A stretch of DNA of 64,000 nucleotides, taken from positions 62,001-126,000 of the forward strand of contig LT827120.1 in NCBI GenBank assembly GCA_900169975.1. Direction: 5' to 3'. Positions 51,201 to 63,992 of the stretch are shown here, in pieces; positions within the stretch are counted from its first letter, which is position 1; each line of letters opens with the position of its first letter. The stretch comes from Pseudoflavonifractor sp. Marseille-P3106 (lineage in GTDB: Bacteria > Bacillota > Clostridia > Oscillospirales > Oscillospiraceae). A program made the translations under genes and the position numbers. A model generated the notes under the pieces. It was not told the origin of the DNA. It was given only the letters and a program-made list of their open reading frames with translations, and did not search any database.

Positions 51201-52367
51201 ATGAAAAAGTTTCTGCCACTGCTGCTGGCACTGACAATGGTATTTAGCCTTGTGGCCTGCGGCAACTCCAACAGCACCAAAAACGATCAGAGCGGCGCAG
51301 ATCAAAGCAACACCCCGACTCAGACCCCGGATGCCGGCAATGCTGAGCAGTCGGAGACCCGTATCATCACCGATATGCTGGGGCGTGAAGTCGAGATTCC
51401 TGCCAAGATCAATACAATCATCTGTAATGGCAGCAATGCCCTGCGTATGGTTTCTTACCTGCAGGCTACCGGCATGATAGTAGGTGTGGAGGAAACCGAC
51501 AAGGGTTATGAGACATCGACCAAGCGGGATTATGCTCATGCCTATTATGATATCTTCAAGGATATGCATGTTATCGGCAAGGGCGGTGGCACTGCCTACA
51601 CCGCTTATCCTGAAGAGATTTTAAAGGTTCATCCCGACGTGATCCTGACCTGTTTCGTACAGGAGGCTGCCGAACAGCTGCAGAACGAGACTGGTGTTCC
51701 CGTGGTCAGCATTCGTTGCCCAAGCGCCAACTTTATTGACGAAAACTGGTATGCAGCATTGCGCCTGACCGCTGAGCTGACCGGCACTGAGGAGCGTTGT
51801 GAGGAACTTCTGAGCTACATCGACGAATGCAAGGCTGACCTGAAGGAGCGGTCCTCTACCGTTGCGGATGAGGACAAGCCCACGGTTTATACCGGCGCTG
51901 TTACTTTCTCTGGCGGTCACGGTTTTGCCGGCACCTATGCCAATTTCGGCCCCTTCCTGGCCATTGACGCCAAGAACGTTGCTGATGAGACTGGCGAAAA
52001 AGCCGCTTTCGAAGTCGATCTGGAGAGGGTCCTCGTCTGGGATCCCGATGTTATTTTCCTCGATCCTGGAAACATGAATTTGGTCAATGATGAGTACAAA
52101 TCCAACCCTGATTTTTTCCATTCCCTGAGTGCTGTTCAGAACGGTGAAGTATACACCATGCCCTCTTTCAATAATTACTCCACCAATATCACCTACTGCA
52201 TCATGAATGCCTACCACGCTGGCAAGGTGCTGTATCCAGATCAATTTGCAGATATTGATCTGGAGGCTAAGAGCACCGAGATCATGAATGAGTTCCTGGG
52301 CACGTCTTTCTTTGATGACATGGAAGCAGATGGTCTGTACTACGGAAAACTGACACTAGGTGAGTAA
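51201..52367 (+). CDS. ABC transporter substrate-binding lipoprotein, metal/metallophore type
   Basis: A 388-residue lipoprotein. The signal MKKFLPLLLALTMVFSLVACG gives a lipidated Cys20. A Ser/Asn/Gln-rich linker precedes a BtuF/FepB-type binding fold (PF01497: RIITDMLGREVEIPAKINTIICNGS ... VHPDVILTCF ... VWDPDVIFLDP). It captures a metal complex or cofactor outside the cell. The downstream permease, ATPase and nickel-cofactor genes make nickel or a nickel chelate the likely cargo (inference); iron-siderophore or cobalamin cannot be excluded. GAAAGGA precedes the start. Confidence 0.87.
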   Translation: MKKFLPLLLALTMVFSLVACGNSNSTKNDQSGADQSNTPTQTPDAGNAEQSETRIITDMLGREVEIPAKINTIICNGSNALRMVSYLQATGMIVGVEETDKGYETSTKRDYAHAYYDIFKDMHVIGKGGGTAYTAYPEEILKVHPDVILTCFVQEAAEQLQNETGVPVVSIRCPSANFIDENWYAALRLTAELTGTEERCEELLSYIDECKADLKERSSTVADEDKPTVYTGAVTFSGGHGFAGTYANFGPFLAIDAKNVADETGEKAAFEVDLERVLVWDPDVIFLDPGNMNLVNDEYKSNPDFFHSLSAVQNGEVYTMPSFNNYSTNITYCIMNAYHAGKVLYPDQFADIDLEAKSTEIMNEFLGTSFFDDMEADGLYYGKLTLGE

Positions 52368-52371
52368 ATAT

Positions 52372-53460
52372 ATGCAGAAAACCCAAACCGCACTGAAGAA
52401 TTCATATCGGCGCTATATCCGGCGCAAATGGCTGGTGTTGTTTGTCCTGGTAGCTATTCTTTGCACCTGTGTTGTAGTCTCTATCTCTGTCGGATCATCA
52501 GGCCTGACGATTTCTGAGATTGTGACCGCATTGCTGGGGAAAGGAACCGCGCAGACCAGTGCGATCATCTGGAACATACGTATGCCCCGAATTGTTACCG
52601 GCATCATGGTGGGTATCGCATTGGCCTTGGCCGGCTGTATCATGCAGAATGTGCTGCGCAATCCGCTGGCCTCCGCCTCTACCCTTGGCGTTTCCCAAGG
52701 TGCCTCCTTTGGTGCAGCATTTGCCATCGTCTGTCTAGATGCCGGTGCTCAAGTTAATGCCAGCACTTCCGCAGCGGCTGCCGTTTCCATCACCAACCCT
52801 TATCTGGTAACATTGTGCGCTTTTATTGGCGGCTTTCTGACAACGGTGATAATCCTTGGTCTGTCGAGAATTGCCAGAGTTTCTCCGGCTACCATGGTCC
52901 TGGCCGGCGTGGCTCTCAGTTCCCTGTTCAGCGGCGGTACCACTATTGTACAGTACTTTGCTGATGATGTGAAGGTAGCCTCCGTCGTCTATTGGACCTT
53001 CGGTGACTTGGGCCGCGCAAACTGGCAGGAAATTGCTTCGATTTTTGCTGTTACAGTCATTGCTCTGCTGTACTTCCTCGCCAACCGCTGGAATTTCAAT
53101 GCAATGGAAAGCGGCGCTGACACCGCCAAGAGTTTGGGTGTTGCCGTCGATCGGCTTATTTTGATCAGCATGACCTTGTGTTCCCTGATGGCTGCAGTTT
53201 CCACTGCCTTTGTGGGCTGTATCAGCTTCATTGGTTTGATTTCTCCTCATATGGTGCGGAAATTCGTGGGAAATGATTACCGTTTTCTGATTCCTGCCTC
53301 GGCATTGATGGGAGCAATCGTCCTGGTCCTTTCAGAGTTGGTCTCCCGTATGATCGTTGCACCAAGCATTCTGCCCATCGGTGCCCTTACATCCTTCCTG
53401 GGTGCCCCCATGTTCCTCTACATGATTTTCAAAAGGGGGGGCATCAAATGGTCGAAGTAA
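52372..53460 (+). CDS. FecCD/BtuC-type ABC permease
   Basis: A 362-residue membrane protein with about ten helices. VLFVLVAILCTCVVVSISVGSSGL, RMPRIVTGIMVGIALALAGCIMQNVLRNPLAS, and GCISFIGLISPHMVRKFVGNDYRFLIPASALMGA are standard signatures, the last containing the ATPase-contact loop. ATG 52372 follows GGTGAG; an in-frame GTG at 52360 overlaps the preceding gene. It forms the channel for the binding protein upstream and the ATPase downstream. Confidence 0.88.
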   Translation: MQKTQTALKNSYRRYIRRKWLVLFVLVAILCTCVVVSISVGSSGLTISEIVTALLGKGTAQTSAIIWNIRMPRIVTGIMVGIALALAGCIMQNVLRNPLASASTLGVSQGASFGAAFAIVCLDAGAQVNASTSAAAAVSITNPYLVTLCAFIGGFLTTVIILGLSRIARVSPATMVLAGVALSSLFSGGTTIVQYFADDVKVASVVYWTFGDLGRANWQEIASIFAVTVIALLYFLANRWNFNAMESGADTAKSLGVAVDRLILISMTLCSLMAAVSTAFVGCISFIGLISPHMVRKFVGNDYRFLIPASALMGAIVLVLSELVSRMIVAPSILPIGALTSFLGAPMFLYMIFKRGGIKWSK

Positions 53461-54197
53461 AAGACATTACTTTTTCCTACGGAAAGCATTCCATCTTAAA
53501 AGGCATTTCTTTTTCAGCAGAACCCGGTGACTGTGTCGGAATCCTCGGTAACAACGGCGTGGGGAAATCCACTCTTATCACTTGTATGAACAGCATCCGA
53601 AAGCCTGACGACGGGTCGGTTTTGATCAATGGTAAAAGCATTTTTGAAATGAGCCGTCTGGAGTTGGCCAGAAACGTTGCCTATGTGGCGCAAAAAAACG
53701 AGTTGAGCCAAACAACGGTTTATGACGCTATTCTGCTGGGCCGAAAGCCCTATATGACATGGAGCATGAACTGCGCTGACTATGCTCTTTGTGATGAAAT
53801 GATGGAACGCATTGGCATGACAGATTTCAAACTTCGCAACATCAATGAACTCAGCGGGGGCGAAGTGCAAAAGGTCATGCTGGCCCGCGCCTTTGTACAG
53901 CAGCCTAAGCTGCTGCTTCTGGACGAGCCCACCAGCAATCTGGATCCTAGAAACCAGTACGAGATGATGAAGCTGGTCCGTCAGATGGCGCTGGAACAGG
54001 GTATCTCCGTGCTGGTGGTCATCCATGACCTGAATTTGGCTCTGCGCTACTGCAACCGTTTCCTTTTTATAAAAGATGGTAGTGTGTACGATTACGGCGA
54101 TGGGTCTGTTGTAACGGAAAAGGCGCTTCGGGATGTCTATGGGATCAATGCTTCCTTGGTCATCCATGATAATAAAAAATTTGCAATTATCAAATAA
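53448..54197 (+). CDS. ABC transporter ATP-binding protein
   Basis: A 249-residue ATPase. Walker A is GNNGVGKST, signature is LSGGEVQKVMLARA, Walker B LLLLDEPTSNLD, and H-loop VIHDLNLAL. It matches the FecE/BtuD group. It overlaps the permease gene by 13 bases, so the three genes form one importer unit. Confidence 0.92.
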   Translation: MVEVKDITFSYGKHSILKGISFSAEPGDCVGILGNNGVGKSTLITCMNSIRKPDDGSVLINGKSIFEMSRLELARNVAYVAQKNELSQTTVYDAILLGRKPYMTWSMNCADYALCDEMMERIGMTDFKLRNINELSGGEVQKVMLARAFVQQPKLLLLDEPTSNLDPRNQYEMMKLVRQMALEQGISVLVVIHDLNLALRYCNRFLFIKDGSVYDYGDGSVVTEKALRDVYGINASLVIHDNKKFAIIK

Positions 54198-54212
54198 AAA
54201 GGAGAATCAACC

Positions 54213-54743
54213 ATGGATAAGAGAGCGCTTTGGGAAAAATGCGTTGCATTTCATGGACATGAGTGCCCCGGCCTGACGATTGGATATCGTGCGGCTCTAT
54301 ACGCCATTGACCTGTTGGAATTGACCTTTTCTAATGATGAGCAGGTGGTCTGTATCACAGAGAATGATGCCTGTGGTGTGGATGCGATCCAGGTATTGCT
54401 GGGGTGCAGTGTAGGCAAGGGGAATCTGCTCTTCCATATGACGGGCAAGCAGGCATTTTCTTTCTACAACCGTAAGACCGGAAAATCTGTTCGTTTGGTC
54501 CTGAACAAGCCCCTTGGAGAGTTGACCAGAGAAGAGTCCTTTCGCTATTATCACGCATGCAAGCAGGAAGATCTGTTTACAGTCAAAGAAACGAAAATCG
54601 AAGTCCCTGAGCGTGCACGGCTGTTTGATTCTTATGCTTGTGAATGCTGCGGTGAAACTACGGGCTCAAACTGGATCCGTCTCTCCGGCGGCAAAAAGCT
54701 CTGCATAGACTGCTATCAGAGATATGATCGGTTCAACGTATGA
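54213..54743 (+). CDS. FmdE family protein with C-terminal zinc ribbon
   Basis: A 176-residue protein. The N-terminal domain (CVAFHGHECPGLTIGYRAA ... CITENDACGVDAIQVLLGCSVGKGNL) is the FmdE domain (PF02663) named from formylmethanofuran dehydrogenase. A zinc ribbon follows at the end (YACECCGE ... KLCIDCYQRY). No methanogenesis genes are present. FmdE-like proteins occur beside metal transport and metal-cofactor genes, where they may act as metal-binding chaperones. Here it lies between the transporter and the lar genes, so nickel delivery is a reasonable guess. AAAGGAG precedes the start. Confidence 0.82.
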   Translation: MDKRALWEKCVAFHGHECPGLTIGYRAALYAIDLLELTFSNDEQVVCITENDACGVDAIQVLLGCSVGKGNLLFHMTGKQAFSFYNRKTGKSVRLVLNKPLGELTREESFRYYHACKQEDLFTVKETKIEVPERARLFDSYACECCGETTGSNWIRLSGGKKLCIDCYQRYDRFNV

Positions 54744-54812
54744 TTGACTCTTCGGTGAGAATCCTGACTCTGCGCAGGGTCTGGGCAAAACACATGATGG
54801 AGCCATTCGATA

Positions 54813-54850
54813 CGCAGGGCCTGTATTCCGTATTGGATATAGGCCCTGCG
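54813..54850. other. Hairpin between FmdE and larE genes
   Basis: CGCAGGGCCTGTAT pairs with ATATAGGCCCTGCG. There is no clear T run, so it may attenuate or process the transcript rather than end it. Confidence 0.45.
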
Positions 54851-54899
54851 GTTTCCAGTTTCTGTATGGGACACCGTTTCCTTTTCTTTCAAATACACG

Positions 54900-54928
54900 G
54901 TGACAATCACTTCTTGCTTTTGTATAAT
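54900..54928 (+). promoter_or_regulatory. Internal promoter before larE
   Basis: -35 GTGACA (54900-54905), 17-base spacer, -10 TATAAT (54923-54928); would allow larE-larB-larC to be expressed independently. Confidence 0.6.
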
Positions 54929-54977
54929 GTCGGTAATATGCCAAAAAGCACAAGTTTCTCCAAAGAAGGTATTTATT

Positions 54978-55727
54978 GTGACGCTCTATGAATTTTTTCA
55001 AAAGCACCCAAAAGTAGCCCTTGCGTTCTCCGGCGGCGTAGATTCTGCATATCTGCTTTATGCCGCGCTCAACTGCGGGGCACAGGTCCATGCCTACTAT
55101 GTCAAGTCTGCGTTTCAACCTCGGTTCGAACTAGAGGACGCCATGCGGCTTGCGGCAGAACTGGGTGTGGACATGAAAGTGCTGGATGTAGATGTCTTGG
55201 ACTGCCCGCAGATCGCAGCCAATACCGCAGAGCGCTGCTATTACTGCAAATATTCTATTTTTAAGGCTATTATCAACGCAGCGTCAGAAGATGGGATCTC
55301 TGTCCTGATAGATGGAACCAATGCGTCCGATGATGCAGGTGACCGTCCCGGTATGCTGGCACTGCGGGAATTGACGGTACGCTCCCCCTTGCGGGAGTGT
55401 GGACTCACAAAGACAGAGGTACGGCGTCTTTCTAAGGAGGCAGGCCTCTTTACTTGGGACAAACCCGCCTATGCTTGCCTTGCCACCAGAATCCCAACCG
55501 GAGAAGAGATCACCAAGGAAAAGCTTCAGAGAACTGAGCGGGCAGAAGATTATTTGTTCTCCGCTGGTTTTACCGACTTTCGGGTGAGAATGATGGGCAG
55601 TGCTGCAAGGATTCAACTTCCAGAGCGTCAGCTTCCTTTTTTGCTTAACAAGCGGAAGGAATTTTTGGGGGAATTGAAAAAATATTACAGCGCAGTTTTA
55701 CTGGATCTGGAGGTGCGCGGTGAATAA
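54978..55727 (+). CDS. larE: Nickel-pincer cofactor biosynthesis sulfur transferase LarE
   Basis: A 249-residue PP-loop enzyme. FSGGVDSAYLLYAAL binds ATP. LarE adenylates the carboxylates made by LarB and inserts sulfur. L. plantarum LarE gives up a cysteine of its own; other LarEs use three cysteines to hold a [4Fe-4S] cluster. This protein has ERCYYCKYSIF (CxxC) and PAYACLATRIPTG (third Cys), which fits the cluster type (inference from recalled sequences). The start is a GTG at 54978 with AAGGT eight bases upstream. Its stop overlaps the larB start. Confidence 0.9.
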   Translation: MTLYEFFQKHPKVALAFSGGVDSAYLLYAALNCGAQVHAYYVKSAFQPRFELEDAMRLAAELGVDMKVLDVDVLDCPQIAANTAERCYYCKYSIFKAIINAASEDGISVLIDGTNASDDAGDRPGMLALRELTVRSPLRECGLTKTEVRRLSKEAGLFTWDKPAYACLATRIPTGEEITKEKLQRTERAEDYLFSAGFTDFRVRMMGSAARIQLPERQLPFLLNKRKEFLGELKKYYSAVLLDLEVRGE

Positions 55728-56481
55728 CGAGATTAAACAAATTTTAGAAGCAGTACATTCCAGAGAGTTGTCTGTGGATGATGCACTGTTGAGAATCAAG
55801 ACAGAACCTTTTGAAGATATTGGCTTTGCCAAAGTAGACCTGCACCGAAAAATCCGGCAGGGCGTGGCGGAGGTGATTTACGGTGCCGGAAAAACGCCGG
55901 AGCAGATTATCGGGATTCTGGATGTCATGAAAGCGAATGGACAGGAAACCATTCTGATTACCCGCATGTCTGAAGAAACCGCTGCTGTTATTGGTAAGCA
56001 CCATGAGTTGGATTATCATAAAGATGCACGGGTGGGCATCGTTGGCAAGCTGCCAAGTGCCGATGGATTGGGTAAGATTGTAGTGGCCACCGGCGGGACC
56101 AGCGATATCCCAGTGGCGGAAGAGGCTGTGCTGACCGCACAGGTCCTTGGAAATGAAGTGGTTCGTCTATACGACGTTGGGGTTGCGGGGCTGCACCGAA
56201 CTCTTGCACACTTGGACGATATCATGAGCGCCAGCGTGATTGTTGCTATTGCGGGAATGGAAGGTGCACTTGCCAGCGTGATTGGAGGCCTTGCAGATTG
56301 TCCGGTCATTGCTGTGCCGACCAGTGTTGGTTATGGTGCTTCCTTTAACGGCCTGTCTGCCTTGTTGTCCATGCTCAATTCCTGCGCCAGCGGAGTATCT
56401 GTGGTGAATATTGACAATGGCTTCGGTGCTGGATATCTTGCCAGCATGATTAACCACATGGATGTAAAAAAGGAGGTTTGA
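55720..56481 (+). CDS. larB: Nickel-pincer cofactor biosynthesis protein LarB
   Basis: A 253-residue protein. The C-terminal half resembles AIR carboxylase (PurE): GKIVVATGGTSDIPVAEEA, VVRLYDVGVAGLHR, IVAIAGMEGALASVIGGL and AVPTSVGYGASFNGLSALLSMLNSCASGV. LarB carboxylates and hydrolyses nicotinic acid adenine dinucleotide, the first step of the pincer cofactor. The start is a GTG at 55720 with GGAGGT, overlapping larE by eight bases. larC follows three bases after its stop codon. Confidence 0.93.
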   Translation: MNNEIKQILEAVHSRELSVDDALLRIKTEPFEDIGFAKVDLHRKIRQGVAEVIYGAGKTPEQIIGILDVMKANGQETILITRMSEETAAVIGKHHELDYHKDARVGIVGKLPSADGLGKIVVATGGTSDIPVAEEAVLTAQVLGNEVVRLYDVGVAGLHRTLAHLDDIMSASVIVAIAGMEGALASVIGGLADCPVIAVPTSVGYGASFNGLSALLSMLNSCASGVSVVNIDNGFGAGYLASMINHMDVKKEV

Positions 56482-56484
56482 GCC

Positions 56485-57699
56485 ATGAAAACGCTATATT
56501 TGGATTGTGGAATGGGTGCTGCGGGAGATATGCTCACTGCTGCGCTGCTTGAATTGCTCCCCGACCCCGATGCATTTATCCATGAAGTGAATGCGCTGGG
56601 CTTGTCCGGTGTCCATGTAAAAAAAGAGTCGGCGGTCAAGTGTGGTATCATGGGCACTCATATTTCTGTAACGGTGAATGGTGAAGAAGAGAAGAGCTGC
56701 GAGTACCACCATGACCATGAGCACCCTCATGATCACGAGGATCGTCACAGCCACGGACACCACCACAGCGGTCTGCATGATATCGAGCACATCGTCCGGG
56801 ATCATCTCCCTGTTTCAGAGAAAGTGAAGCAGGATGTGATGGCAGTTTATGGACTGATCGCGGAAGCGGAAAGCTATGTACATGGTGTTCCGGTTTCTGA
56901 GATCCATTTTCATGAAGTCGGCACGATGGATGCGATCGCCGATATTACGGCGGTCTGTATGCTGATGGAAAAACTTTCGCCTGACGAGGTAGTCGTATCC
57001 CCGATCCATGTGGGCAGCGGCCAGGTCTGGTGTGCCCACGGTGTCCTGCCGGTCCCTGCCCCTGCCACCGCCCGCATCCTCAAAGATGTGCCCATTTACA
57101 CAGGCCGGATCAAGGGCGAACTCTGCACACCCACCGGTGCCGCGCTGCTCAAGTATTTTGCGACCCGTTTTGGTGATATGCCGATCATGAAGACCCGCGG
57201 AATTGGTTACGGTATGGGCAAAAAGGATTTTGAGGCGGCAAACTGTGTCCGTGCCCTGTTTGGGGATACGGAAGATAAGACAGATGTCGTACTGGAACTC
57301 TCCTGCAACGTAGACGATATGACTGCCGAGCAGGTCGGCTATGCTATGGAGCGTCTGTTTGACGGCGGCGCACTGGAGGTCTACACCATTCCTGCCGGCA
57401 TGAAAAAATCCCGTCCCGGCACGATGATCTGTGTGTTGTGCCAAGAACAAGACAAAGAAAAAACCGTTTCTTTGATTTTTAAATACACAACGACAATCGG
57501 TGTGCGGGAAGCAAAAATGCATCGTTACGTGCTTGACCGCAATGTGACAGCAAAAGAAACTCCCTACGGAATCGTTCGCCGCAAAGATTCTTCTGGGTAT
57601 GGTGTGACCCGGTCAAAATATGAGTACGAAGATCTGACGCGTATTGCCAGAGAACGTGATATCCGCATTGAGGATGTTATTGCGGCAGTAAAGGATTAA
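56485..57699 (+). CDS. larC: Nickel-pincer cofactor nickel-insertion enzyme LarC
   Basis: A 404-residue CTP-dependent cyclometallase that inserts nickel into the pincer ligand. The N terminus LYLDCGMGAAGDMLTAALLELL and the GELCTPTGAALLKYF segment are family signatures. Residues 75-94 are extremely His-rich (HHDHEHPHDH...HSHGHHH) and should bind nickel. The C-terminal domain (ELSCNVDDMTAEQVGYAMERL) is in the same frame. In L. plantarum LarC is made by a programmed frameshift between two ORFs; here it is a single uninterrupted ORF. Confidence 0.94.
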   Translation: MKTLYLDCGMGAAGDMLTAALLELLPDPDAFIHEVNALGLSGVHVKKESAVKCGIMGTHISVTVNGEEEKSCEYHHDHEHPHDHEDRHSHGHHHSGLHDIEHIVRDHLPVSEKVKQDVMAVYGLIAEAESYVHGVPVSEIHFHEVGTMDAIADITAVCMLMEKLSPDEVVVSPIHVGSGQVWCAHGVLPVPAPATARILKDVPIYTGRIKGELCTPTGAALLKYFATRFGDMPIMKTRGIGYGMGKKDFEAANCVRALFGDTEDKTDVVLELSCNVDDMTAEQVGYAMERLFDGGALEVYTIPAGMKKSRPGTMICVLCQEQDKEKTVSLIFKYTTTIGVREAKMHRYVLDRNVTAKETPYGIVRRKDSSGYGVTRSKYEYEDLTRIARERDIRIEDVIAAVKD

Positions 57700-57961: not shown

Positions 57962-58622
57962 ATGGGGGAAGAAAGGACCGTTCGGGAAGCGGCCCGAATG
58001 TGGAGCGATTTTCCCGGCAAATTTGGAATTCCACGCCAAAGCGGGCTGGTGTCAGCGCTGCATAGTACGATCGTGTTTGAACCGGAGTTCCGGAACCCTG
58101 ACGCACCGCGGGGGATTGCGGGCTTTTCACACCTGTGGCTGATCTGGGAATTCTCTGCCGCGGTGAGAAAGAGCTGGTCGCCTACTGTACGGCCGCCGCG
58201 GCTGGGAGGGAATACCCGCATCGGGGTGTTTGCCACGCAGTCCCCGTTTCGGCCCAATCCGTTGGGGCTGTCCTGCGTCCGGCTGGAGGGGGTGGACCTT
58301 GACACGCCGGAGGGGCCGGTGCTCCGCGTATCCGGCGCCGCCCTGATGGACGGGACGCCCACTTTTGATATAAAGCCCTATGTGCCTGCCCTATGCCGAC
58401 TGCCATCCGGAAGCAACGGAGGGCTTTGCCCCGGCTCCCGCCAAGGAACTGGAGGTCTTTTTCCCTCCTGCGCTTCTGGATCAGTTCCCTGAGAACCGCC
58501 GGGAAGCCCTGCGGGGCGTTTGGGCCTGTGATCCCCCGCCATCCTACCAGGATGATCCCGCCAGAATCTACGGGATGCGCTTCGCAGGGCCGGAAGTGAG
58601 CTTTCGGGCAGAGGGGAGATAG
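57962..58622 (+). pseudogene. trmO: tRNA methyltransferase TrmO (TsaA/YaeB), frameshifted
   Basis: The first frame (57962 to about 58383) reads SDFPGKFGIPRQSGLVSALHSTIVFEPEFRNPDAPRGIAGFSHLWLIWEF ... TQSPFRPNPLGLSCVRLEGVD ... PTFDIKPYVP, a TsaA/TrmO domain. The remaining YADCHPEATEGFAPAPAKEL ... DDPARIYGMRFAGPEVSFR is in another frame. The shift coincides with a tandem TGCC-TGCC at 58383-58390; deleting one copy restores one ORF of about 219 residues. TrmO makes N6-methyl-threonylcarbamoyl-A37 in tRNA-Thr. This is a recent mutation, a phase switch, or a sequencing error. Confidence 0.85.
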
Positions 58623-58849
58623 TTGTCTGTACTCGCTGTGGCAAAAGCGCCCGGACGGGGCGTGGTGCCAATTTGCCTTGACATGAAGGCAAAAAAGAAG
58701 ATTCTCAAAATTAGAAAAACCAGGGGCAAAAAAGGAAGCTTTCGGTCTGCCGCACTGGCATCGCAACAATTTTTGTGTTAAAATAAAAAATGGTATGCGT
58801 TAGCGCTCATGTGTCCCAATCAGGCAAAAACGGGGGGGGAGAAAACACC

Positions 58850-59554
58850 ATGCAGCATCGTTCAGTTAGCACCATCCGCAACCAGGTATACCAGATTCTC
58901 AAGGAGGATATCTGCAATGGAAAATACCGGCCCGGCCAGTGGCTGCAGGAAAATGAGGTGGCCACACAGCTGTCTGTCAGCCGCAGCCCGGTGCGCGAGG
59001 CACTGCGCCAGCTGGCGGCGGATGGCCTTGTGGTGGAGATTCCCAACAAGGGCGTATTTGTAAAGGAGTTCACCTCCCGGGATATCGAGGAGGTGTTCGA
59101 TCTGCGGGTGCTACTTGAAAACTACGCCATCGGCCGCCTGCGGGACAACCTGTCCACCGCGGGCATGGAACAGCTGATGGCCTGCCTGGCCGAGCTGGAG
59201 CGCGCCCACGCCCAAAACGACCTGCGACGCTACATCGACGAGGACGCCCGGCTGCACAGCCTGCTGGTGGAGCTCAGCGGCAACAGCCTGCTGCGCTCCA
59301 TGTACGATAGGGTGCATTCCATGAACCAGCAGTTCCGCATCTATTCTCTCACCAGCAAGAAGCGCTTTGACGAATCCGTCGATGAGCACCGCGGCATGAT
59401 CCACTGCCTGCTCACAGACAGCACGCAGGAGGCGCAGGCCATTAACCGGCAGCATCTGCAATTGGCGCGCGAAAAGATCATCGAGCATCTGGCGCAGCTT
59501 TCCGCGCAGGGGCCGGACGCCCCTCTGCCCGAGCCGCCCACCGAACCGCGCTGA
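58850..59554 (+). CDS. GntR family regulator, FadR/FCD subgroup
   Basis: A 234-residue regulator. The winged helix (NQVYQILKEDICNGKYRPGQWLQENEVATQLSVSRSPVREALRQLAADGLV) spans about 10-70. An all-helical FCD ligand domain follows, with metal-binding residues in DEDARLHSLLVEL and H in DEHRGMIHCLL. Such proteins sense sugar acids or other organic acids. ATG 58850 follows GGGGGAGA. It lies end-to-end with the GntP-UxaA-LarA operon and is the likely regulator of it (inference). Confidence 0.88.
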   Translation: MQHRSVSTIRNQVYQILKEDICNGKYRPGQWLQENEVATQLSVSRSPVREALRQLAADGLVVEIPNKGVFVKEFTSRDIEEVFDLRVLLENYAIGRLRDNLSTAGMEQLMACLAELERAHAQNDLRRYIDEDARLHSLLVELSGNSLLRSMYDRVHSMNQQFRIYSLTSKKRFDESVDEHRGMIHCLLTDSTQEAQAINRQHLQLAREKIIEHLAQLSAQGPDAPLPEPPTEPR

Positions 59555-59644: not shown

Positions 59645-61102
59645 TTAATGAATGAAGATGCTCAGGATGCAGATGATGACCGAGCCGAACACCGGCACCA
59701 GGATGGAACCAATCGTCCAGGTTTTCAGGCTGGTCCTGATATCCATACCGCTGAAGTTCGTCACCACATGGAAGTAGCTGTCGTTGAGGAATGAGGGGCA
59801 CATGGACGTGAGGCACACGCCCAAGCCCGCCAGATAGGGGTTGATGCCCAGCGTGGCCAGCATCGGGGCGATGATGGCGGAGCCGGTGATCATGGCCGTT
59901 GTGCCGGAACCCTGGGGAAAACGCATGATGGTACCGATCAGGAGCGGGACCAGGATCCCAGGGATGCCCACGGCAACGATGGCGCCCGCCATCATGCCGG
60001 CGGCACCGGTGGCCTTGACGACAGAACCCAGCGCACCACCTGCGGCGGTGATCATCACAATGGGGCCGGCGTCTTTCAGCGCATCGTTCATCATGTCCAC
60101 GACCATCTTGTTATCCAGATCTTTTGCCAGCAGGAAGGCGCCTAGGCACAGCGAGATGAACAGTGCGATGACGGGATTTCCCAGGAAGGTGATGATCTGG
60201 CCAATCAAAACACCCTTGAGGGCAGTTTGGCTGACGAGTGTGTTGGCGAGGATCAGAAACACAGGCAAGAGCAGGATCGTAAAGGACAGGCCGGCGCTGG
60301 GTAACTTTTCGGTGCTGAGCAGCTCGGTGAAATCTGTATTTTCCAGTTCCTTGCCGGATTTGATCTTAGCGTCAATTTTATCCAGAACAGCCAACTGTGC
60401 TGCGGTGTATTTGGTGCGGTCGATTTCATAGGGGACCACCAAGTTGGGGTATTTTTTGCCGAACCAGCGGAACAGGAACACCGAGAAGATAAACAGAGGG
60501 ATGGAGATCAGCAGGCCTGCGATGATAAACAGGCCCAGATCAATGATGATGCCCTCGTTTTGAAATGTACTGACCACAGCCAGAGGGCCGGGCGTGGGAG
60601 GGACCATGAAGTGCGTGAGATACAGGCCCATGCCCAAGATGCCGCCTAAGCCGACCATGGATTTTTTGGTCAGGCGGGAGAACTCCTTGGCCAGTGAGGA
60701 CAGAATAACAAAGCCGGAATCGCAGAAAACAGGGATGGACACCACAAAACCCGTGAGGCCCAGAACAACGTCGGCCCGCTTGACGCCCACCAACTTTAGG
60801 ATGGTGATTGCCATGCGCTTGGCGGCACCGCTCTTCTCCAGAAAGATGCCCATGATGCAACCGAAGCCGATCACGATGCCGATGCTGGCCATGGTGCTGC
60901 CGAAGCCGGATGTGACGGTGCTGATGGCAACACTCAGCAAATTGCCGCCTTCATTGCCGGTGCCTGCCAGCAGATAATTGCCCGATAAGACCGCAATCAA
61001 GATCGCAGAGATGATCAGGGAGGGGAACGCGTGCATTCTCGTACAGATGATCAAAAGCATCATTACGACAACACCGATCAGCATTGCTAATACTGGATTC
61101 AT
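59645..61102 (-). CDS. GntP family organic acid permease
   Basis: A 485-residue membrane protein with about twelve helices. GntP signatures are IVIGFGCIMGIFLEKSGAA, GFVVSIPVFCDSGFVILSSLAKEFSR, HFMVPPTPGPLAV, RFPQGSGTTAMITGSAI and CPSFLNDSYFHVV. The family imports gluconate, glycerate, lactate or related hydroxy acids with protons. GAAGGAGAG precedes ATG 61102. It is the last gene of the LarA operon, 98 bases after the large lyase subunit gene. Confidence 0.92.
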   Translation of the reverse strand: MNPVLAMLIGVVVMMLLIICTRMHAFPSLIISAILIAVLSGNYLLAGTGNEGGNLLSVAISTVTSGFGSTMASIGIVIGFGCIMGIFLEKSGAAKRMAITILKLVGVKRADVVLGLTGFVVSIPVFCDSGFVILSSLAKEFSRLTKKSMVGLGGILGMGLYLTHFMVPPTPGPLAVVSTFQNEGIIIDLGLFIIAGLLISIPLFIFSVFLFRWFGKKYPNLVVPYEIDRTKYTAAQLAVLDKIDAKIKSGKELENTDFTELLSTEKLPSAGLSFTILLLPVFLILANTLVSQTALKGVLIGQIITFLGNPVIALFISLCLGAFLLAKDLDNKMVVDMMNDALKDAGPIVMITAAGGALGSVVKATGAAGMMAGAIVAVGIPGILVPLLIGTIMRFPQGSGTTAMITGSAIIAPMLATLGINPYLAGLGVCLTSMCPSFLNDSYFHVVTNFSGMDIRTSLKTWTIGSILVPVFGSVIICILSIFIH

Positions 61103-61200
61103 AAGATTCTCTCCTTCTCAAAGCAAGATTGGGCAGGCGGAATGTGTAGAAGCTTTCGCTTAAGGCCCCTGCACAGCGGGGCTGAAACGACGCATGGGTA

Positions 61201-62364
61201 TCAGATCACAGGGCCCAGACAATGGATGTCGATTGCGCTGAAGTACTGAATAGCCTCGTTTTTGGTCATCTCGCCGCTGAGCACGCGCAGCATCTTGGTA
61301 AAGGCCTCCTCACCAACCTGCTCAATGGTCTTTTCGCCGGTAATGATTAGGCCGGCGTTGAGATCCATATCGTTCTCCATGTGCTCGTAGGTGTTGGGGT
61401 TCCCGCAAATCTTAATGACCGGCATGCTGGGGAAGCCCTGCGGCGCACCCCGCCCAGTGGAAAACATCATGAACTGGGCGCCTGTGGCAGCCATACCGGT
61501 GAGAATTTCGGGTTCGCGGCCCGGGGTATCCTTGATCCACAGGCCTTTCTGCGTGGTGACGTGCTCAGGATATTCCAGTACGCCCTGGATGGGGCGAGTG
61601 CCGCTTTTGACAATGGCCCCCAGGCTTTTTTCCTCGATGCTGGACAGGCCCCCGGCGATATTGCCCGGAGTGGGCTGTCCCTTACGCATGTCGCAGCCGA
61701 TGCTCTTGGCGCGGGCCTCCATGGCGTTGACAATTGCGAAGATCTTGTCGCCTACCTCCTTATTTACGGCGCGGCGCGCCAGAAGATGCTCGCCGCCCAA
61801 AAACTCGGTGGTCTCGCCGAAGATCACGGTCGCGCCCAGATCCACCAGCTTGTCGGCCACATAGCCGATCACGCAGTTGGACGCCATGCCGCTCGTCGTA
61901 TCGGATGCGCCGCACTTGATAGCCATCACGATATTGGACACATCCACGCTCTGGCGCTGCAGGCCGGAAACCTCGACTACCAGCCTGCGGGCGATATCAG
62001 TACCCAACTGGATGGCCTTGCTCACGCCGCCCAGCTCCTGGATATGGATGATCTCCACATGTTTTCCGGTGGCGATCAGCTCCTGGTACATCCGCTCGTG
62101 GTCGGTACCCTCGCAGCCCAGGCTAACGATGAGGATGGCCGCTACATTGGGGCTGTGGCCCAGGCTGATGAGCGTGTCGGTCACTCGCTCAAGGTCGGGA
62201 GGCATCTGGCAGCAACCCTGATGGTGCAGATACGTGATTGTGCCCTGCACCTGGCGGCAGATGGCCTGGGCCACGTCGTTGGCACAGGTGACACTGGGAA
62301 TCACCGCGACATAATTGCGTGCGCCGACCTTTCCGTCGGGCCTCACATATCCCATAAACTCCAT
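61201..62364 (-). CDS. UxaA/SuyB-type lyase, large subunit
   Basis: A 387-residue protein equal to the C-terminal catalytic part of altronate dehydratase UxaA, and also to SuyB, the large subunit of sulfolactate sulfo-lyase. Motifs: GYVRPDGKVGARNYVAVIPSVTCAN, HHQGCCQM, VSLGCEGTDHERM, AIKCGASDTTSGMASN, FGETTEFLGGEHLL and FSTGRGAPQGFPSMPVIKICGN. The conserved cysteines suggest an iron-dependent active site. It removes water (or sulfite) from a 2-hydroxy acid. GGAGG precedes ATG 62364. The small subunit lies 15 bases upstream. Confidence 0.9.
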   Translation of the reverse strand: MEFMGYVRPDGKVGARNYVAVIPSVTCANDVAQAICRQVQGTITYLHHQGCCQMPPDLERVTDTLISLGHSPNVAAILIVSLGCEGTDHERMYQELIATGKHVEIIHIQELGGVSKAIQLGTDIARRLVVEVSGLQRQSVDVSNIVMAIKCGASDTTSGMASNCVIGYVADKLVDLGATVIFGETTEFLGGEHLLARRAVNKEVGDKIFAIVNAMEARAKSIGCDMRKGQPTPGNIAGGLSSIEEKSLGAIVKSGTRPIQGVLEYPEHVTTQKGLWIKDTPGREPEILTGMAATGAQFMMFSTGRGAPQGFPSMPVIKICGNPNTYEHMENDMDLNAGLIITGEKTIEQVGEEAFTKMLRVLSGEMTKNEAIQYFSAIDIHCLGPVI

Positions 62365-62379
62365 TGTGTTTTATCCTCC

Positions 62380-62682
62380 TCATCCTTCCAGATCGCCGCG
62401 ACCGCGCATGCTGTCGAGGTTGTGCACATGCACATATTCGCCCTTGGCGATATCTTTGCTTGCGATACCGATCTCCTCGCCGTACTTGGTGATCTGCTCG
62501 CCTTTTTTGATGCTGCACACCGCGATCTTGTGCCCATAGGGCACATCGCCCTTGACCGTAACGGTCTCGGCGCCGCCCTTTTTGTCGCGGATCTCCACCT
62601 CCATGCCGTCGGTGATGCCGTTGGCAAAAATGGTGGCCACATTGTCTTTGTCGTGTACTTTCAGGGCCAGTTTCAGTTCCAT
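62380..62682 (-). CDS. UxaA/SuyA-type lyase, small (SAF-domain) subunit
   Basis: A 100-residue SAF-domain protein equal to the N-terminal part of UxaA or to SuyA. The pattern LKVHDKDNVATIFANGITDGMEV ... VPYGHKIAVCSIKKGEQITKYGEEIGIASKDIAKGEYVHVHNLDS is typical; the YGEEIG core is intact. It pairs with the large subunit gene directly downstream. Separate subunits are normal in Clostridia and in Suy lyases. Confidence 0.9.
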   Translation of the reverse strand: MELKLALKVHDKDNVATIFANGITDGMEVEIRDKKGGAETVTVKGDVPYGHKIAVCSIKKGEQITKYGEEIGIASKDIAKGEYVHVHNLDSMRGRGDLEG

Positions 62683-62714
62683 AAGGTTCCACTCCTTTTT
62701 ATTGCGGCGGATAT

Positions 62715-63992
62715 TTACTCTTTTACGGCCAGCACGCTCACGCCGTCTGGGATAACCACCACGCTGGCGTCGCGCCCCTTCATGCTGTAGGCGATCTGCA
62801 GTGCCTCGTCGGGCGTGGAGGCCGGGATCATGTTTGCCCTGCGCACCTCATCATGGTTAAGATATGTGGTAACCAGGATTACCGGATGCTTTTTCAGGAT
62901 GCGGGCATAGATCTGCGGACACCACTGTTCAGGGATCGTCTCCTTGGGAGGGATCTTGGACAGATAGCTGTCAATCTCGTCCACACTGCCCATCGTGATG
63001 AGCTTTTCAAAATGTGTTCCACCCATACCATCGGCACAGCTGCAGCACATGATGATCACACCGTTCTCTCCGGCGCAGGCCTCTGCAGTAGCTACAGCCT
63101 TGGGGCTTTGGTAAAGGTTCTGATCCAGCGGATAGCCCCCGTTGCTGGTAACTACGATGTCCCCCGTGACGCTAGGGCACTGCGACCATTTACGGATGAA
63201 CGCCACGCCTTCGGCGTGGGCCTGCTCCAAATCACCCGCCCAAGCGGCAATAATCTTTTTCTTGCCGTCCAGCGCCACATTGAAGATGAACTGCACGTTC
63301 ACCTTGCGCGCCGCATACAGCATATCCTCGTGAATCGGGTTGTGCTCCAGGATGCCCGTGTTGGAATACGGGCTGGCAATGGCCTTGTAGCTGTGGTTCT
63401 CGTTCACCGTCTCCTGGGAACAGATCCCTGGCAGGATGCTTTTGCGTCCGCCCGAAAAGCCTGCGAAGAAGTGCGGCTCGATAAAGCCTTCTGTCACCAG
63501 AAGATCACATTCAGTTGCCAGCCGGTTAACATTGAAATCCGCCCCCGAGGGCAGTGTGCACATATGTACGAACTGGCTGGGGTCGAACGCATTGTTGATG
63601 GCAATCTTTTCATTGTCTACGATGACATCACCGAACATGAGGCGCTGCTCTTCCTCTGTGGTGGCCCTATGCAGTCCGGTCGCAATCAGGATCGTGATTT
63701 CCGCATCCGGGTTGCCTGCCCGGATCTCGGCCAGCAGAATGGGCAGCGTGATCTTACTGGGCACGGCACGAGTGTGGTCGCTGGTTACCAATACCACCTT
63801 CTTTTTCCCCTTTGCCAGCTCGCGCAGACGCGGCGTGCCGATGGGATGCTCCAAAGCGTCCAGCACTAGCTGCTCCTCGCTTTTGTCTGCCTTGTACTCG
63901 TGCATCTTGGCAGTTACTACGGCTTTCAGGTTTGCCTCATCTACATGCAGATCCAATGTGGAGGTATAATAGGGAATGGGAATGGTCTTCAT
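62715..63992 (-). CDS. LarA-family nickel-pincer-dependent 2-hydroxy-acid racemase/epimerase
   Basis: A 425-residue LarA homologue (DUF2088). All active-site residues I recall from L. plantarum LarA fall at identical numbers: D72, R75 (SDHTR), H108 (TGLHR), H174 and K184 (EPHFFAGFSGGRK), H200 (NENH) and K298 (QSPK). K184 carries the pincer cofactor, H200 binds nickel, and H108/H174 abstract the alpha proton. The enzyme is therefore probably active. Homologues act on lactate, malate, gluconate and other 2-hydroxy acids. It precedes a split UxaA/SuyAB lyase, so the product probably feeds that lyase. The window ends eight bases before its start, so upstream control is not visible. Confidence 0.93.
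   Translation of the reverse strand: MKTIPIPYYTSTLDLHVDEANLKAVVTAKMHEYKADKSEEQLVLDALEHPIGTPRLRELAKGKKKVVLVTSDHTRAVPSKITLPILLAEIRAGNPDAEITILIATGLHRATTEEEQRLMFGDVIVDNEKIAINNAFDPSQFVHMCTLPSGADFNVNRLATECDLLVTEGFIEPHFFAGFSGGRKSILPGICSQETVNENHSYKAIASPYSNTGILEHNPIHEDMLYAARKVNVQFIFNVALDGKKKIIAAWAGDLEQAHAEGVAFIRKWSQCPSVTGDIVVTSNGGYPLDQNLYQSPKAVATAEACAGENGVIIMCCSCADGMGGTHFEKLITMGSVDEIDSYLSKIPPKETIPEQWCPQIYARILKKHPVILVTTYLNHDEVRRANMIPASTPDEALQIAYSMKGRDASVVVIPDGVSVLAVKE

Follow-up and report, generated by a model that had tools for sequence, protein, structure and literature searches.

The window analysed here, 64,000 nucleotides of the forward strand of Pseudoflavonifractor sp. Marseille-P3106 (contig LT827120.1, contig 14 of a 3.1 Mb genome, positions 62001-126000), carries on its minus strand a block of four genes for a LarA homologue, the two subunits of a lyase of the UxaA/GarD superfamily and a GntP-family permease. 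We propose that this block is a GntR-regulated catabolic unit for glycerate, a reading to which we give a probability of about 0.55 and whose substrate is deduced. GntP would import glycerate, and LarA, with the nickel-pincer cofactor provided by LarB, LarC and LarE, would interconvert D- and L-glycerate by hydride transfer at C2, a chemistry that is established for the LarA family. The lyase, a presumed iron-type two-subunit enzyme, would take the C3 hydroxyl off one enantiomer, probably L, to yield pyruvate, while a glycerate 2-kinase would convert D-glycerate to 2-phosphoglycerate. Both enantiomers would be usable in this way, with one exit via 2-phosphoglycerate and another straight to pyruvate. 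D-altronate and (R)-sulfolactate have a common L-like arrangement at C2, and this is the sole basis for the L preference assigned to the lyase.

Glycerate was considered the best fit because of the linked kinase, the operator, the reductase and pyruvate oxidoreductase genes, the scarcity of aldolases and the small-acid pocket of LarA. The narrower proposal, in which a nickel-pincer glycerate racemase would feed a natural Fe-dependent L-glycerate dehydratase of the UxaA/GarD superfamily and Clostridia would have a kinase-free exit to pyruvate, is advanced at slightly less than even odds. A first-pass annotation of this DNA had proposed import of a 2-hydroxy acid, inversion of C2 by the nickel enzyme and beta-elimination; this general logic is upheld by the conserved gene pairing described below, but both of the substrates it named were abandoned.

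Gene order and conserved pairing of LarA with the lyase

The larA homologue (62715-63992, minus strand; 425 amino acids, Pfam Lar_N and LarA_C), a predicted glycerate racemase, is followed on the same strand by the lyase small subunit (62380-62682; 100 amino acids, SAF domain PF08666 at 23 bits against a cut-off of 21), the large subunit (61201-62364; 387 amino acids, GD_AH_second and GD_AH_C), a predicted L-glycerate dehydratase, and gntP (59645-61102; PF02447, 281 bits), the predicted substrate importer. The intergenic gaps are 32, 15 and 98 bases, all four genes score above Pfam cut-offs and the same arrangement is found in dozens of genomes. The gene content, strand and positions described in the first-pass annotation were thus confirmed. 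It had also placed a GntR regulator at the end of the operon: an FCD-type GntR gene (58790-59554; FCD and GntR domains) does adjoin gntP, but it lies outside the interval 59645-63992 and on the plus strand, convergent with gntP, and is therefore not a member of the minus-strand operon.

A MOFRL-type glycerate 2-kinase gene lies past the right edge of the window, on the strand of larA and about 380 bases upstream of it (L004:14377-15612; L numbers denote the loci examined). Its DUF4147 and MOFRL domains score 263 and 119 bits in Pfam. The protein falls below the NCBIfam glycerate 2-kinase equivalog cut-offs (248 vs. 550 and 207 vs. 670 bits), and among solved structures PDB 2b8n, annotated as "glycerate kinase, putative", is the nearest (E 7e-124). 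The genome has no other intact MOFRL gene, a second match being partial and below cut-off. A GC-rich inverted repeat followed by a T tract was seen by eye between kinase and larA (L004, about 14350-14302, minus strand), which suggests that the two are probably separate transcripts; a promoter and terminator scan returned nothing, the loop of this repeat exceeding the length that the scan allows.

The recurrence of the pairing was studied in two samples. A lyase-first search with the large subunit yielded 49 loci, mostly from Clostridia, with others from Megasphaera, Acidaminococcus and two deltaproteobacterial contigs. Since such a sample is biased for LarA linkage, this linkage was counted in a LarA-first set of 72 neighbourhoods, taken from partly overlapping sets of 394, 391, 398 and 397 genomes, which cover the order, the class, the phylum and the family of G609, respectively. 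From the 64 LarA places of the order search, the three of the own genome and the seven further clade genes were used in full, together with 13 of the remaining 54; the family search contributed its 43 places minus one partial gene, and the class and phylum searches contributed every place found. We drew the boundary of the LarA clade at the break in identity to the window LarA between 56 and 50%; the 24 genes at 56% or above form the clade, and the 48 other lactate-racemase-group genes examined are 44-50% identical to the window protein.

A large subunit on the same strand and within 6.5 kb of LarA was found for 22 of the 24 clade genes and for none of the 48 others (Fisher p=1.5e-16, the genes not being phylogenetically independent). 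The 22 include the own copy on contig 13 (L005), whose lyase is in pieces. In 20 of these 22, LarA and the large subunit are at most 430 bases apart; the distance is 1441 bases in L107 and 1960 in L096. One of the 48, the Ala-type LarA of L120, is paired with a relative of the lyase pair (50%) that falls outside the clade. When both samples were merged and duplicate lyase sequences removed, 65 distinct lyase-clade loci remained, 54 with a clade LarA and 11 without; GntP was near the lyase in 36 of the 65, and the small subunit adjoins the large one in most relatives examined. The LarA-lyase-gntP set, of which Caproicibacter fermentans (L054) is a cultured carrier, is real and conserved, and it is probably regulated as a unit. 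The LarA-dehydratase pairing looks undescribed: no description was found among the listed titles and abstract openings of open-licence papers, although it may already be in Table S1 (gene contexts) of PMC7583248, and the terms "dehydratase" and "UxaA" are absent from the main texts of PMC7583248 and PMC11770544.

Glycerate-linked neighbours and a shared operator

A MOFRL glycerate 2-kinase was found within 8 kb of the lyase in 20 of the 65 distinct loci and in 18 of the 36 with GntP; counted from LarA, it occurred in 8 of 24 clade loci vs. 0 of 48 others. The kinase gene is upstream on the same strand in L004, L008-L011, L028 and L045, upstream and divergent in L029, L030, L033, L037 and L055, and downstream in L017, L031, L034, L043, L070, L072, L091 and L092. 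These three arrangements argue for several separate joinings.

In addition, 29 of 53 clade larA genes are preceded by a palindrome with the core TGTATACA (0.4 expected from simple shuffles), as are 8 of 20 kinase genes (0.08 expected on the same basis). Four of the kinase copies are in the kinase's own promoter (L008, L010, L011, L028) and four in the region common with a divergent larA. The extended operator, allowing up to two mismatches, occurs in the own genome at three places, the one exact copy being upstream of larA, and the reversed pattern at two. The GntR-FCD protein is predicted to bind this operator upstream of larA. The exact core does not precede gntR (0 of 26), gntP (0 of 37), any reductase-like gene (0 of 4) or, at LarA-less loci, the small-subunit gene (0 of 12), and it is also absent upstream of larA in most GntP-less loci, such as L005, L035, L044, L089, L090, L097, L107 and L108.

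Tartronate-semialdehyde-reductase-like genes lie near the lyase in L017, L028 (61% identical to E. coli GarR), L031 and L091. Two of them were scanned with TIGR01505: that of L091 is above the cut-off, and the copy of the L031 gene in L096 is below it (264 vs. 341 bits). At two loci without LarA, L022 and L024, the lyase comes after a lactate-permease-family transporter and subunits of pyruvate:ferredoxin oxidoreductase in a single run, and pyruvate is therefore indicated as the product.

Part of this evidence could also be accommodated by an aldonate or aldarate route, in which LarA would epimerise C2 of a sugar acid, a galactarate/altronate-type dehydratase would act on it and an aldolase, mostly unlinked, would release pyruvate and a C3 unit to be processed by the reductase and the kinase. 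The Pfam family of the lyase agrees with this route, reductase and glycerate kinase are common to the E. coli gar pathway, the GntP models are of gluconate type, and DHDPS-family genes occur at L019 and at the more distant split lyases L058 and L098, the last being the 45% lyase paralogue of the own genome with a DapA-family gene next door. It must be considered, however, that no GarL- or DapA-type aldolase was found within 8 kb at the 54 loci with a clade LarA, other aldolase types not having been searched in every locus. The search compared GarL and one DapA-type reference with the 65 loci and gave nothing at a 30% identity floor and, without the floor, the L019 gene (25%). Likewise, no aldolase was among the 25 of 95 Pfam families listed for 112 of the 159 neighbouring unknown open reading frames (ORFs) of at least 190 amino acids, the longer ones being mostly omitted. 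The pyruvate oxidoreductase link in L022 and L024 also stands against this route, as does the LarA pocket, which has F,F,W,C at the positions where GntE has E,V,A,H (175/176/358/359 in LarA1 numbering; PMC11770544, cited here and below, like PMC6336799 and PMC6982167, from a part of its text). The window LarA scores 36.9 bits with the hexonate-epimerase model NF052594, whose cut-off is 500. Identity of the lyase as a galactarate dehydratase was rejected, given that the large and small subunits reach 222 and 52 bits with TIGR03248, against a cut-off of 731. A sugar-acid substrate is accordingly quite unlikely, and the hexonate epimerase feeding an altronate-type dehydratase put forward by the first-pass annotation is not supported, in view of the pocket, the epimerase model and the lack of a GarL- or DapA-type aldolase near the 54 loci with LarA.

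Nature of the lyase and of the LarA pocket

Residues C27, C51, C84 and C151 of the large subunit occupy the conserved cysteine columns of the superfamily, defined as those with Cys in both E. coli UxaA and GarD; their spacing fits the numbers in the portion of PMC6336799 used, whose own protein is outside the alignment. According to that portion, the four cysteines are conserved in the UxaA/GarD superfamily, sulfolactate sulfo-lyase excepted. All four are kept in 66 of 66 lyase-clade members, in E. coli UxaA and GarD and in seven other split relatives, while SuyB has L or I, R, and I at three of the columns and keeps the fourth Cys (6 of 6). Three columns hence split SuyB (6) from the rest (75) among the 81 sequences compared. 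The large subunit is 36% identical to SuyB, which forms its own clade with support 1.0 and members at least 62% identical to SuyB; the clade of the window lyase was cut at 57% identity and has a low tree support of 0.39.

The identity of the SuyB sequences was checked by their neighbours. The Cupriavidus pinatubonensis gene sits with hpsN and hpsO, hpsN is present at L056, TauE at L144 and a sulfate exporter at L145, while L143 has a histidinol-dehydrogenase-type gene plus dehydrogenases and L146 has dehydrogenases. The assignment of L147, whose neighbourhood is without annotation, rests on 86% identity to SuyB. The NIR_SIR sulfite-reductase domain was absent from the own genome and present in 11 of 14 controls, exporters not having been searched. 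Given the kept cysteine set and the lack of this domain, a sulfo-lyase is unlikely. We therefore take a dehydratase-type enzyme as the most likely identity of the window lyase, for which a 2,3-dihydroxy acid is the expected substrate.

The other candidate of the first-pass annotation, a sulfolactate racemase feeding a SuyAB sulfo-lyase, draws on the SuyAB-like two-subunit layout, the likely pyruvate product and the CuyA-like genes at 3 of 65 loci. The low identity, the separate SuyB clade, the presence here of the three cysteines that SuyB has replaced, the missing NIR_SIR domain and the hpsN, TauE or sulfate exporter genes carried by true SuyB loci all go against it, and the consulted part of PMC6336799 mentions a two-subunit dehydratase as unpublished data. 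We regard it as the least likely of the readings weighed. Hardly more probable is 3-mercaptolactate or another C3-sulfur acid, racemised by LarA and split by the lyase into sulfide and pyruvate. It would suit the Cys of the LarA pocket, a preference for an ethyl-sized side chain if LarAH42 is representative, and the desulfhydrase-like genes of L025, L027 and L097 with the methionine-gamma-lyase-like gene of L097, but it is opposed by the complete dehydratase cysteine set and by the frequency of such neighbours (3 of 65 vs. 20 of 65 for glycerate kinase). The CuyA/D-cysteine-desulfhydrase-like gene directly follows the lyase in L027 and L097 and is divergent in L025.

With respect to LarA, residues D72, R75, H108, H174, K184, H200 and K298 are at the numbers claimed in the first-pass annotation, and all of them, comprising the catalytic H108 and H174, the cofactor-binding R75, K184 and H200, plus D72 and K298, are kept in 22 of 22 lyase-linked LarAs. 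The F,F,W pocket is of the type of racemases acting on C3-C4 monocarboxylates. Cys358, Pro297 and Glu355 are also present in 22 of 22 lyase-linked proteins (Thr359, Val297 and Asp356 in LarA1), and the two clade members without lyase (L074, L075) have Asn, not Cys, at position 358. The usual residue at 359 in lactate racemases is E or Q (PMC11770544).

The window LarA scores 583 bits with the lactate racemase model NF033504 (cut-off 460); the model also takes the L005 paralogue (574 bits) and therefore does not separate subgroups. An ordinary lactate racemase next to a lyase acting on an unrelated acid agrees with this equivalog score. Against it, Cys358 replaces Glu, LctP or GlcD neighbours occur in 0 of 24 clade loci and the lyase pairing is near-perfect. 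Moreover, the own genome has two further larA genes, and one of them, the Glu-type larA of L006, with a lactate permease, a GlcD-type dehydrogenase, an electron-transfer flavoprotein subunit and an acyl-CoA dehydrogenase, is the usual type of lactate racemase operon. We consider an ordinary lactate racemase very unlikely. Clustering with plain lactate racemases had been named in the first-pass annotation as evidence against its proposal, and this is half the case: the window LarA does fall within the lactate-racemase group and passes its model, but it belongs to a subclade of its own and the genome has the separate lactate operon. The other larA, at L005, lies with a TRAP transporter and two enolase-superfamily (MR-family) proteins, followed by the lyase copy in pieces; there, the large subunit is fragmented with an internal gap (L005:11134-11692, contig 13) and LarA is intact. 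The same gene run with an intact lyase is found in L035 and L044.

Neighbours of the remaining LarAs in the 72 loci were informative. LctP or GlcD lies near 8 of 14 Glu-type LarAs and 0 of 25 Gln-type ones, while a GarK-family glycerate kinase accompanies 9 of 25 Gln-type LarAs and 0 of 14 Glu-type ones. The assayed Gln-type LarAH43 prefers glycerate (PMC11770544), and this agreement of pocket residue and neighbours indicates that neighbours do report substrates in the LarA group. The GarK-adjacent Gln-type LarAs (L110-L113, L115, L119, L122, L123, L076) are candidate glycerate racemase operons without lyase, several of them also with threonate-kinase-like and PdxA genes.

Several observations weigh against glycerate as the substrate. 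The Gln of LarAH43 is absent, with Cys at that position in 22 of 22 lyase-linked LarAs, and the Cys-type LarAH42 acts on 2-hydroxybutyrate, lactate and glycerate at 610, 200 and 12 M-1 s-1, respectively (PMC11770544). No glycerate kinase is found within 8 kb in 45 of the 65 lyase loci, in some owing to contig ends; the exact operator core is missing at the eight downstream kinases (0 of 8) and the kinase copy of the own genome has one mismatch. At L019, which lacks LarA and has a large subunit 85% identical to that of the window, the lyase pair is directly preceded by a DapA-family (DHDPS) gene (197 bits; L019:3089-5502), an arrangement known from sugar-acid routes. Finally, the lyase has partners for which a glycerate route alone does not account, namely MR-family proteins in 5 of 65 loci, CuyA-like genes in 3, and a malate-racemase-type LarA with TctA, PrpD and Lyase_1 genes in 4.

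LarAH42 could be neither assigned to the clade nor excluded from it by residue number, its cysteine being Cys357, as compared with Cys358 in the clade and Cys359 in a second Cys-type group (L132, L136, L137, L139, L141). The latter is separate, on the lactate side of the tree, and LarAH42 could belong to it; LctP or GlcD is near two of its five members.

These pocket data bear on a further alternative, a four-carbon 2,3-dihydroxy acid (4-deoxythreonate/4-deoxyerythronate or threonate/erythronate) that LarA would epimerise at C2 and the lyase would convert to a 2-oxo acid such as 2-oxobutyrate. 2-Oxobutyrate may be taken by pyruvate:ferredoxin oxidoreductases, which we count in its favour. It is also in line with the slow epimerisation of 4-deoxytetronates by lactate-racemase-group enzymes and with the preference of LarAH42 for the C4 acid 2-hydroxybutyrate (PMC11770544), and at one lyase locus, covered by both L013 and L104, threonate-kinase-like and PdxA genes are found alongside. 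Nevertheless, it leaves the glycerate kinase, the tartronate-semialdehyde-reductase-like neighbours and the common operator unexplained, and threonate-kinase-like genes (24-28% identical to that of L013) are near 5 of 25 Gln-type and 1 of 24 clade LarAs (L104). A four-carbon substrate is, in our opinion, unlikely, and glycerate is retained.

As regards the loci with other partners, L026, L036, L038 and L041 combine the lyase pair and the malate-racemase-type LarA with a homologue of nickel-pincer nucleotide (NPN) group 22 and TctA, PrpD and adenylosuccinate-lyase-like genes, to which L026, L036 and L038 add a FumC-like gene. L089 and L090 have a similar set, but with the Cys-type LarA and malic enzyme. 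The substrate of these loci may be a succinyl-linked compound. In the lyase tree, the sequences of L026, L036, L038 and L041 all fall within those of the gntP type, which suggests that the lyase substrate would be unchanged and reached by other upstream steps. On a plasmid of Sporomusa termitida (L057), the lyase pair (49%) lies in one run with genes for an MR-family protein, a tripartite tricarboxylate transporter, an NPN group-22-like protein and GntR; this species is also the source of the published LarAH62 and LarAH66.

Cofactor genes, known systems and significance

The plus strand carries, some 5-9 kb away from larA, the cofactor genes larE, larB and larC, which the first-pass annotation did not mention. 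They encode the sulfur transferase LarE of NPN cofactor synthesis (54900-55727; TIGR00268, 254 bits, cut-off 150), LarB of the same synthesis (55720-56481; NF033503, 285 bits, cut-off 175) and LarC, for nickel insertion into NPN (56485-57699; PF01969, 451 bits, with the LarC1 and LarC2 models above cut-off). They are preceded on that strand by an ABC transporter composed of a substrate-binding protein (51201-52367; an ORF assigned to its family by eye), a FecCD-family permease (52360-53460; PF01032, 299 bits) and an ATPase (53448-54197; ABC_tran, with heme/F420-0/corrinoid-type best models). An FmdE-domain protein with a zinc-finger end (54213-54743; PF02663, 119 bits) is encoded between the transporter and larE. 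The run 51201-57699 is a possible nickel-uptake and cofactor operon, the nickel role being suggested by position alone, and the type of its ABC transporter (51201-54197) is unlike the L. plantarum counterpart. A single stretch therefore holds cofactor synthesis genes, a possible metal importer and the enzyme. An ORF at 57962-58492 resembles by eye the TsaA/TrmO tRNA methyltransferase.

The window LarA shares family, cofactor, catalytic residues and F,F,W pocket with the lactate racemase group (L. plantarum LarA1, LarAH42, LarAH43, LarAH51), but its clade is a distinct subclade linked to a dehydratase rather than to lactate oxidation. SuyAB has the same layout of a small SAF-type and a large GD_AH-type subunit and a likely pyruvate product; the window locus differs from it in sequence, in the three extra cysteines and in that no sulfonate or sulfite genes were seen around it. 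The split UxaA/GarD dehydratases accompanied by an aldolase-family gene (the L098 paralogue and L058 from Priestia) have the same domains and four cysteines at 44-45% identity, whereas the lyase clade of the window joins LarA, glycerate kinase or pyruvate oxidoreductase, and among its 65 loci one (L019) has a DapA-family gene. The nine loci with Gln-type LarA and GarK (e.g. L110-L113) are alike in having a lactate-racemase-group LarA beside a glycerate 2-kinase, but the kinase is GarK, not MOFRL, and there is no lyase pair of the window clade. The dihydroxyacid dehydratase SsDHAD converts D-glycerate to pyruvate and water as a small promiscuous activity (PMC6982167), which is the same overall reaction carried out by another enzyme family on the D form.

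It must be noted that, since three cysteine columns separate SuyB from the rest, layout alone should not be used to label two-subunit UxaA-like pairs as SuyAB. Lactate-racemase-group LarA racemises glycerate in vitro, and the authors left the physiological significance to be determined (PMC11770544). The operon would offer a defined biological setting for this activity, with a nickel racemase tied to a dehydratase and a glycerate kinase. If the glycerate reading is true, the UxaA/GarD superfamily would gain a C3 substrate and a probable L-glycerate hydro-lyase, and glycerate racemisation would have a role in vivo. Likewise, anaerobes would have a route for both enantiomers of glycerate, and a kinase-free exit from glycerate to pyruvate would extend across Clostridia, many of them from animal guts.

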